Shown here piece after piece: positions 18,601-20,533 of a stretch of DNA of 29,723 bases. The notes under the pieces were generated by a model. That model was not told the DNA's origin and did no database searches. It worked only from the letters and a program-made list of their open reading frames with translations. The position numbers and the translations under genes were made by a program. The stretch spans positions 1-29,723 of the IMG/VR virus record IMGVR_UViG_3300023176_000213; one strand, written 5' to 3'. Numbering within the stretch: position 1 is the first letter of the stretch; each line of letters begins with the position of its first letter. Source of the DNA: a virus.

Positions 18601-19080
18601 TTATACAGCGGCTGAGAATGGAGTTGCTTCTGTGCCAGTAGCTGCTTGACGAATAACAACAGAGAACTTTCCAGAATATACATCCTGAAGTTCAATCTGA
18701 CCGCCGAGGATTCCACCAGTGGTGGTTCCATTCAAAGTAATGGTGTCAGAAGCTGCTACAGTTTCAAAGATAGAAGCTGTGTCGCCGCCATCGTTTGCAA
18801 CGATAGCTACCCCAGCCATGCTATCAGACGCGCTTGCGGCTTGAATAACATAGTTGTTTGAGGTTACAGTCGTCTTAACAAAAAACTTATAAACATTGCC
18901 AGTGCCAGTTGCTGCTGGAAGCGTAACGGTTGCGCCGCTTGCTACATCGAGGAGCATTGTGCGCCCAGCGTGGTTAGCAGAAGTTAATGTTACATTGGCG
19001 TCTACGGTAACGAGAGAACCAGAACCAGAGATAAAACCATTGGTAGATGTAACTGGACCCGAAAAAGTGGTCGAAGACAT
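18601..19080 (-). CDS. beta-rich virion or decoration-like protein, 159 aa
   Basis: The product begins MSSTTFSGPVTSTNGFISGS and is low in charge and rich in Thr, Ala and Val, with TLTSANHAGRTMLLDVASGA (about 31-50), TVTLPAATGTGNVYKFFVKT (about 51-70) and FSVVIRQAATGTEATPFSAA at the end. Similar proteins accompany marine phage capsid genes in my memory; a capsid decoration or head-fibre role is likely but unproven. It is the first minus gene downstream of the plus-strand regulator island, and so may need its own promoter within 19081-19209. Confidence 0.65.
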   Translation of the reverse strand: MSSTTFSGPVTSTNGFISGSGSLVTVDANVTLTSANHAGRTMLLDVASGATVTLPAATGTGNVYKFFVKTTVTSNNYVIQAASASDSMAGVAIVANDGGDTASIFETVAASDTITLNGTTTGGILGGQIELQDVYSGKFSVVIRQAATGTEATPFSAAV

Positions 19081-19085
19081 ATTAT

Positions 19086-19137
19086 CACCCCTTGCACAAG
19101 GTTTTGCCTAGCAGTCTGTGCAACGTCAGGTGGGGTG
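19086..19137. other. two-part inverted repeat in the divergent intergenic region
   Basis: TTGCACA (19092-19098) and TGTGCAA (19117-19123) are perfect arms with an 18-nt gap, and outside them CACCCC (19086-19091) pairs with GGGGTG (19132-19137) across an 8-nt bulge. It lies between the start of the minus gene at 19080 and the plus-strand promoter candidate. It may be an operator or an RNA leader structure of the minus gene. Confidence 0.4.
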
Positions 19138-19157
19138 TCCTGTCTGCAAGGCTAATG

Positions 19158-19186
19158 TTAACCCCAATTCTAGAATAGAATACAAT
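19158..19186 (+). promoter_or_regulatory. candidate sigma70-type promoter for the plus-strand regulator
   Basis: TTAACC (19158-19163, 4 of 6 to TTGACA) and TACAAT (19181-19186, 5 of 6 to TATAAT) are 17 bp apart, ending 23 nt before the leader ORF start. A perfect 10-bp palindrome ATTCTAGAAT (19167-19176) fills the spacer and is a natural autorepression site. Confidence 0.5.
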
Positions 19187-19209
19187 TGACAGAAAAGAAA
19201 GTAAAGAAA

Positions 19210-19278
19210 ATGAACAAAAAGAAAGAGCCAAATCCAGAAGAAGTGCCTCCAGTAGACGAATATGAGGACAGACTATGA
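19210..19278 (+). CDS. 22-codon leader ORF overlapping the regulator start
   Basis: ATG at 19210 opens a frame for MNKKKEPNPEEVPPVDEYED followed by RL, ending with TGA at 19276-19278. That stop overlaps the ATG of the regulator (ATGA). The ribosome-binding site is weak (A/G-rich only). It also contains the strong GAGGA site that serves the regulator. It may couple or tune regulator translation; a function for the peptide itself is not evident, and it may be non-coding. Confidence 0.4.
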   Translation: MNKKKEPNPEEVPPVDEYEDRL

Positions 19279-19562
19279 CAAGAACAGAGCAAGCTATAGA
19301 GATGGCTGAAAATGGTTATAGCCTAGAACAGATAGCAAAGGCATTCGGTACAACAAAAAAAATTATAAGAACGTCTATGTATCTAGAGATGAAAAAGACT
19401 GAGCGTATAGCATTACGCCTCTTTCTCACAGAGAAGACCTACGGCCTTTTACAGGAAGAAGCAAACGATCTCGGTATAGAAGTTGCTGGAATAGTGCGGT
19501 CTTTGATCTCAAAGCACATACGAGAACGCAAGAAGCAAAAACAAAACGAAGGAAAGGGGTAA
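19275..19562 (+). CDS. putative DNA-binding regulator, HTH plus ribbon-helix-helix
   Basis: The only sizeable plus-strand gene encodes 95 residues. Residues 3-37 form a helix-turn-helix-like unit (EQAIEMAENG, SLEQIAKAFG, TTKKIIRTSMYLE). Residues 44-83 look like an Arc/MetJ-type ribbon-helix-helix: a beta strand RIALRLFLT, then EKTYGLLQEEANDLG and VAGIVRSLISKHI. The C-terminus is basic. Ribosome-binding site GAGGA lies 6 nt before the ATG. It stands alone against the structural genes, with its own promoter candidate, and a hairpin spans its stop codon. A phage regulator of late genes or a 'moron' is likely. Its target sites are unknown; the dispersed palindromes are candidates. Confidence 0.7.
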   Translation: MTRTEQAIEMAENGYSLEQIAKAFGTTKKIIRTSMYLEMKKTERIALRLFLTEKTYGLLQEEANDLGIEVAGIVRSLISKHIRERKKQKQNEGKG

Positions 19563-19575
19563 CCGAAGTTACCCC
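19543..19575 (-). terminator. UUCG-loop terminator behind the capsid gene
   Basis: Arms GGGGTAAC (19556-19563) and GTTACCCC (19568-19575) are perfect. In minus-strand RNA the loop is UUCG closed by C-G, the very stable tetraloop, and a U-rich tail follows (UUUCCUUCGUUUU). It sits about 50 nt after the major capsid gene stop and would end its transcript. In plus-strand RNA the same hairpin covers the TAA of the regulator but lacks a U-run. Confidence 0.75.
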
Positions 19576-19627
19576 AATCCAACAGGGAGGACGCCCAGAT
19601 GACTGGACGCCATCCTATTATCACAAT

Positions 19628-20533
19628 TTACGCTCCGGGTGAACCGTAAATTCCGAGCGGATCAGAAACGCCGAAGGAATAACGCTCACGCGCTTTGTAG
19701 CGCACGTTACCCGTATCGAAGTCACCATCCATAGATGTTGCCATTGGAGTACGCACAAAGTGCTTCATTCCGTTTGGAACATCTGTAGTGATGAAGAACG
19801 CATCTGTGTCCGTAAGGTAGTGGTTAACGCGGTAACCTTCTGGGATCGAACCATTTGAACGCAGAGCGTTGATGTCGTTATCCGCAGTACCTGTACGAAG
19901 CTCAGTCTGAAGCAAGCGAGTTGCTACAAACATAAGCGCAGGTGGAACGATGAGCTTGCGAGGACGCGCAGCAATTAACAAGCCGCGTTCGTCAACGAAT
20001 GCAGCAATGTCAATAACCGCTTGTTCAAGCGAGGTTTCGTTCAAGTCTGCATCCGTCGAAGGACGGTTTGCGTTATTACCACCAGCAACGGTTGGGTGCG
20101 ACGTGCTGAAAAGGAATGCACCATCACCAGATGTGAATGTATCAAATCCAGTGTTCAGCAAATTCGCAGCTTTTACCTGCTTGGTGTAGGCCATAGCGCG
20201 AGCTAGAGCCTTTGTATAACGTGCAGACAAGGAGTCATACAGGTTGTCTTCCATCGCCTCTTCGGTGATGGAGAAGCCCATAGCAACCGTTTCGTGGTTG
20301 TAACGAGCAGTGAAAGACTCCTGTGCGTTGTCATACGAGATTGCAGAGCCTTCAGGCTTAATTGGCGCAGCGCCAAAGCCAGAAAGTTTAACCTCTTCCT
20401 CAAAGCTACGCTCTGAGTTTTCAGTCTCATAAATCTCTGCATGTTCGTTTTCGTACTTTTGATACTCCAAACCGAACAATGCATTAAGACCCGGCAGAAG
20501 CTCCTTCAGTAGTTGAGCGCGTGAAATAGCCAT
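19628..20533 (-). CDS. major capsid protein
   Basis: The 301-residue product is the capsid subunit by its size, position after scaffold-like and decoration-like genes, and HK97-type features. These include an N-terminal helical arm (EYQKYENEHAEIYETENSER, about 23-42), a beta-rich E-loop-like region (VKLSGFGAAPIKPEGSAISY, about 48-67), and a central helix with FVDERGLLIAARPRKLIVPP. The C-terminal run GNVRYKARERYSFGVSDPLG is typical of marine capsid proteins. The ribosome-binding site is a perfect AAGGAGG, the best in the window, fitting the most abundant protein. A UUCG terminator follows. The fold is inferred from family resemblance. Confidence 0.85.
   Translation of the reverse strand: MAISRAQLLKELLPGLNALFGLEYQKYENEHAEIYETENSERSFEEEVKLSGFGAAPIKPEGSAISYDNAQESFTARYNHETVAMGFSITEEAMEDNLYDSLSARYTKALARAMAYTKQVKAANLLNTGFDTFTSGDGAFLFSTSHPTVAGGNNANRPSTDADLNETSLEQAVIDIAAFVDERGLLIAARPRKLIVPPALMFVATRLLQTELRTGTADNDINALRSNGSIPEGYRVNHYLTDTDAFFITTDVPNGMKHFVRTPMATSMDGDFDTGNVRYKARERYSFGVSDPLGIYGSPGA

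Follow-up and report, generated by a model that had tools for sequence, protein, structure and literature searches.

An accessory regulator gene between the capsid and cement genes of a marine phage, flanked by a SorX-like small RNA candidate and a structured leader RNA

In a viral record of 29.7 kb (29,723 nt; "the window" is this whole stretch of DNA), a 95-codon ORF lies on the plus strand amid an otherwise minus-strand series of structural genes. Sequence comparison indicates that it is a gene under purifying selection, inserted between the genes for the major capsid protein (MCP) and the cement protein; we refer to it as the "regulator". Our best overall explanation, to which we assign a probability of about one half, is that the window comes from a marine phage whose capsid is of the HTVC023P/HTVC027P/Pag-Yong1 type, with an accessory gene between the MCP terminator and the cement promoter, and that this gene encodes a small DNA-binding dimer, a repressor of the region that holds its own promoter and the divergent one of the cement gene. 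What was an orphan ORF can now be regarded as a gene under selection whose empty site is mapped; the apparent regulatory cassette around it turns out to be partly borrowed from its neighbors. The gene is an ordinary kind of accessory phage gene, of unusual probable architecture and without known relatives. The main interest lies in its surroundings: a candidate for a SorX-like small RNA (sRNA) on one side and, on the other, a structured leader RNA that is unlisted (Table 1).

Genomic setting

The TerL, portal and MCP genes of the window were identified by profile match, and TerS by a weak match to Terminase_2. The closest sequences to its MCP and TerL are those of Pelagibacter phages HTVC023P/HTVC027P, phage DSL-LC04 and Planktothrix phage Pag-Yong1. 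The gene downstream of the MCP gene is annotated as cement protein in DSL-LC04 and as minor capsid protein in Pag-Yong1. The GC content of the regulator gene is 38.8%, versus 44.4% for the whole window.

Table 1. Features of the region between and around the MCP and cement genes (window coordinates)
Feature	Position	Strand	Basis or remark
Cement/decoration protein gene	18601..19080	-	Position and annotation of relatives
Structured cement leader RNA, covarying stem and pseudoknot	19081..19165	-	
Candidate regulator promoter, TTAACC-17-TACAAT	19158..19186	+	Near chance level
-10 of cement promoter (TATTCT), 6 nt before leader RNA, overlaps ATTCTAGAAT	19172..19177	-	
22-codon ORF, shares ATGA with regulator	19210..19278	+	Within 65-nt indel; L367 lacks it
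Accessory regulator gene, 95 aa, predicted HTH and RHH-like	19275..19562	+	L367 copy, dN/dS 0.12; HTH matches; model
SorX-like sRNA candidate: hairpin 1, CCTCCCTGTTGGA (19578-19590), terminator hairpin	19550..19616	-	Rfam alignment, motif, stem
Terminator hairpin of MCP/sRNA, GGGGTAAC-TTCG-GTTACCCC; regulator stop codon on opposite strand	19556..19575	-	
Extended -10-like TGtGATAAT directly after MCP stop	19617..19625	-	
Major capsid protein (MCP) gene	19628..20533	-	phrog_371, E 2e-22

A selected gene at a mapped empty site

The initial annotation had described a plus-strand ORF of 95 codons in the structural series, a 22-codon ORF overlapping it at ATGA, and a hairpin over its stop codon, all of which are present. 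An ATG ORF as long as 95 codons would arise by chance in a gap of such composition with P ~0.03. We accept it as a gene despite this value, because a diverged copy under purifying selection exists. This copy, at the same site and on the same strand of viral contig L367, surfaced through a pattern search run for another purpose; it is 76% identical over the full length, with the MCP and cement proteins of the two contigs being 99% and 97% identical. The reading frame is kept: dS is 1.09 and dN 0.13 (dN/dS 0.12), and substitutions at codon positions 1/2/3 number 14/8/40. Among the other frames, the lowest dN/dS is 0.20, for one antisense frame. Judged by these patterns, the 95-residue ORF codes for a protein and is held under purifying selection.

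Searches of phage, plasmid and bacterial genome collections found no relatives of the 95-residue protein, and 50 related genomes or records checked for the gene contained only an identical copy. With both copies as queries, a search of 2.9 million viral contigs by two short patterns found only two distinct variants. The gene thus seems rare, within the reach of a narrow pattern search.

Comparison of relatives with and without the gene, a check that the initial annotation had proposed, located the insertion. Of ~125 loci that share the MCP/cement junction, nearly all lack the gene. The distance from the MCP gene to the core of the leader is mostly ~90-155 nt in relatives that share this leader RNA, versus 497 nt in the window. 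The empty site is seen in L009, L369, L131, L104 and L013, with the order terminator, T-run, promoter, leader. From these comparisons, the regulator gene was inserted between the genes for MCP and cement protein. Other loci have other inserts at this junction: a GIY-YIG + NUMOD3 gene in L192, an ORF with a weak PCO_ADO match in L132, ORFs judged by eye to be HNH-like (with no Pfam match) in L022, L117, L138 and L173, and ORFs of other kinds in L108, L152 and L206. By this comparison, the junction is an insertion hotspot in which both strands are used.

Predicted fold of the regulator

Regulator residues 1-46 match HTH_7, Sigma70_r4_2 and GerE, with best E values of 0.0003-0.001 over both members (the window and L367 copies); all family matches of the regulator are below curated cut-offs. 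An AF2 model built from the two sequences places residues 1-30 at pLDDT 72-82, while the single-sequence model is uninformative (mean pLDDT 53.7). The predicted model has the tri-helical arrangement of an HTH; over residues 1-46 it aligns with HTHs such as sigma region 4 and those of RcsB type at Z 7-8, values that can also come from common structural arrangements. Foldseek returned no match to the model at E<=0.001, and NCBIfam only irrelevant ones. Taken together, residues 1-45, the N-terminal half, are likely a sigma-region-4/LuxR-type HTH.

The model of the remainder, at low confidence, has no element in residues 43-52, followed by helices at 53-66 and 70-92. Both members weakly match the Arc-like phrog_582 and the repressor phrog_876 (best E 0.013 each). 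Searched alone, the C-terminal half has no Pfam match, including to Pfam ribbon-helix-helix (RHH) families. An RHH-like C-terminal segment is plausible on this predicted layout. The combination of HTH and RHH modules proposed in the initial annotation is therefore supported for the HTH, by profile matches and by the structure prediction that it had called for, and stands as plausible for the RHH, which has weak phage-repressor matches and a low-confidence layout.

Signals around the regulator gene

The strong hairpin across the regulator stop codon (z -5.5) had been assigned to the regulator. It reads GGGGTAAC-UUCG-GUUACCCC-TTTCC on the minus strand, with a cUUCGg loop, ~50 nt past the MCP stop codon, and in most relatives without the regulator ORF a hairpin of this kind closely follows the MCP stop codon. 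In L367, a G-U pair preserves the minus-strand stem; read on the plus strand, that pair would be an A-C mismatch. By position and conservation, the hairpin is the minus-strand terminator of the MCP gene, and does not belong to the regulator.

The upstream signals fare variably. The proposed promoter sequence is present and matches at 9/12 positions, but the number of such matches is near chance (2 sites versus 1.5 expected); its L367 equivalent, TTAACC-17-TATAAC, is partly kept. The 22-codon ORF, regarded as a leader within the unit, can be discarded as a member: it falls within a 65-nt indel with ATGA at its borders and is missing from L367, where the regulator starts at the ORF's ATG. Autorepression through the palindrome ATTCTAGAAT (19167-19176) had also been suggested, with the regulator as a candidate reader of the window's palindromes. 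ATTCTAGAAT was rejected as an operator: it is not enriched (17 occurrences at up to 2 mismatches versus 17.6 expected), it reads ATTCTGTGAC in L367, and it overlaps the cement -10. In empty-site relatives, the left half of the palindrome forms part of the -10 of the cement promoter (GTATGCTATTCTG...GGGG). For this one palindrome tested, the suggested role as reader is without support. No operator conserved between the two carriers, the window and L367, was found.

The cement promoter and its leader RNA

The cement gene is preceded by a structured leader RNA belonging to a family found in >100 contigs. Among 53 non-redundant leaders (52 true members and one unrelated chance match), a 7-bp stem has compensatory double changes at 6/7 pairs. 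In 52/52 true leaders, the loop is paired with a 5' GGGN strand, the pairing score being 9.4 versus 8.2 when partners are shuffled (maximum 8.8 of 300); we therefore describe the leader as pseudoknotted. The window leader remains unmatched in Rfam even at E<=5, including by Mu-gpT-DE (RF03012), which 11/18 related loci do match. This covarying cement leader is thus a structured RNA that Rfam does not match. In L110, incomplete copies of the leader RNA sequence stand in tandem within the 323-nt gap between the MCP gene and the leader (GCGGGATGACATGAGCTG...).

Many relatives have a precisely spaced extended -10 upstream of the leader. TGnTAnnnT occurs in 41/74 unique empty-site leaders, versus 10% in shuffles, and in 0/2 regulator carriers.

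Possible modes of action

If the regulator acts at the junction as a repressor, the following steps can be envisaged. Transcription would begin at the candidate promoter at ~19158-19186, back-to-back with the cement promoter, and the transcript would end convergently in the MCP terminator. The predicted N-terminal HTH would bind DNA, and the RHH-like C-terminal segment would give an intertwined dimer. This dimer may then repress the divergent regulator/cement promoter region.

The strongest alternative, though a tentative one, is that the regulator acts elsewhere (e.g., on an early/late switch, in superinfection or on host promoters), with the junction merely tolerating inserts. The many unrelated inserts accepted there, and the lack of a conserved operator near the gene, fit this reading; nothing specific speaks against it, the window being part of a genome only.

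Somewhat more doubtful is activation of the cement promoter: insertion would have removed the TG of the extended -10, and a region-4-like HTH would compensate, tying decoration to the accessory gene. The loss of TG in both carriers leaves room for activation, and the similarity of the HTH to sigma region 4 agrees with it. However, the loss may merely accompany insertion, since HNH-like insertions likewise lack TG; TG is also missing in 33 empty sites, the cement -10 TATTCT is still present in the carriers, and HTHs like region 4 are common among repressors.

We consider it very improbable that the regulator is an Aca-like (anti-CRISPR-associated) autoregulator of a small moron operon, of which the 22-codon ORF is the remnant partner. 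The small ORF, the translational overlap, the HTH gene and the place among structural genes recall such operons, but the candidate acr partner has only 22 codons and is absent from L367, PADLOC gives no match, and the regulator promoter has no conserved inverted repeat. An Acr/Aca operon, with an acr gene beside the HTH gene, was accordingly rejected. Finally, it is scarcely credible that the reading frame is spurious, lying antisense to a long 3'UTR: the ~3% chance of such an ATG ORF is not negligible, but the dN/dS of 0.12 with its third-position excess is strongly contrary, as are the HTH family matches and the absence of the whole segment from relatives.

A SorX-like sRNA candidate behind the MCP gene

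SorX is a 3'UTR-derived stress sRNA that targets the mRNA of a spermidine-transporter subunit (PMC8625941, PMC8307010). The Rfam SorX model (RF02784) aligns end to end with the minus strand at 19616-19550, scoring 27.2 bits against a gathering cut-off of 46.6 (E 2e-4 for a 0.7-kb search). The 13-nt CCTCCCTGTTGGA is exactly common to the window's MCP 3'UTR and Rhodobacterales SorX, and the SorX feature CCUCCCUGUUGGA lies between hairpin and terminator in the window. The window and all 13 related viral loci tested fall short of the gathering cut-off, and we therefore use the label "SorX-like" rather than claiming membership.

In bacterial genomes, the 13-mer followed by a CTTCGG terminator occurs in 92 stretches, with ~63 among the 80 listed being Rhodobacterales by title. 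SorX scores above threshold in 14/18 of the bacterial 13-mer + terminator loci tested. By inspection, 24/26 exact reverse-complement 13-mer sites in 12 host genomes are SorX-type elements.

Among viral contigs, 74 have the 13-mer + terminator signature, and in 57/74 it lies 10-46 nt past this MCP gene. A SorX-type seed and terminator are also found, without a match to this MCP, in L305, L311, L314, L321, L324, L337, L339, L353, L357, L363 and L374. These contigs may represent prophages, host DNA or phages of other kinds that have sRNAs of similar type.

Several further observations concern the 3'UTR: (i) in 3'UTRs not selected for the motif, CCTCCC occurs in 25/171 unique sequences and CCTCCCTGTTGG in 3/171; (ii) the stem upstream of the motif averages 7.6 bp versus 4.9 in shuffles, with compensatory changes between the window and L367; (iii) a loose extended -10-like element directly behind the MCP stop occurs in 49/57 motif-bearing UTRs versus 27/145 others, a count that includes motif-selected loci. 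RNAalifold recovers only the terminator from the sRNA alignment, because hairpin 1 shifts in register. Judged by alignment, motif and stem, the MCP 3'UTR is a candidate for an sRNA of SorX-like type.

Ribosome-binding-site targets of the form AACAGGGAG[GA] in host loci initially appeared numerous; after removal of antisense copies of SorX, a single site was left, with no ORF behind it. Beyond SorX itself, the host loci searched contain no complementary target site with an ORF behind.

It appears, then, that in a widespread marine phage group the capsid gene is directly followed by an sRNA whose seed is identical to that of a stress sRNA from Rhodobacterales. In one review of phage sRNAs (PMC12197685), no such case was found, which is weak evidence of novelty. 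If the sRNA is real, one could test directly whether phages control host mRNAs by mimicking a host sRNA. More speculatively, and we regard this as unlikely, the whole junction could be a node of RNA and protein control: the SorX-seed sRNA would act on host transporter mRNAs late in infection, the pseudoknotted leader would control cement expression, and the HTH-RHH insert, antisense into the sRNA terminator, would now run the cement promoter.

Comparison with known systems

Phage morons are extra genes between conserved genes, classically with their own promoter and terminator. The regulator resembles them in being an extra gene between structural genes that are adjacent in relatives, in opposite orientation and of lower GC content. 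Unlike classic morons, it has no terminator of its own, ending instead inside the MCP terminator, and its promoter is only a candidate. The earlier term "moron-like island" consequently holds for its placement, given its absence from most relatives and the other inserts found there, and fails for the terminator.

The Arc-type phage RHH repressors (PHROG 582 and 876) are like the regulator in C-terminal layout and in their weak profile matches to both members, which are not significant alone; the regulator differs in its extra N-terminal HTH. Mu-gpT-DE occupies the same place between the MCP and cement genes in relatives and shares the core ACAnTAGCC..GACAGG with the window leader, which is longer, with the 7-bp covarying stem and the pseudoknot.

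Unlike SorX, the sRNA candidate scores below the gathering cut-off, lies behind a phage MCP gene, and possibly has its own -10. Like SorX, it lies 3' of a coding gene, has two hairpins with the identical CCTCCCTGTTGGA between them, and aligns over the full length.
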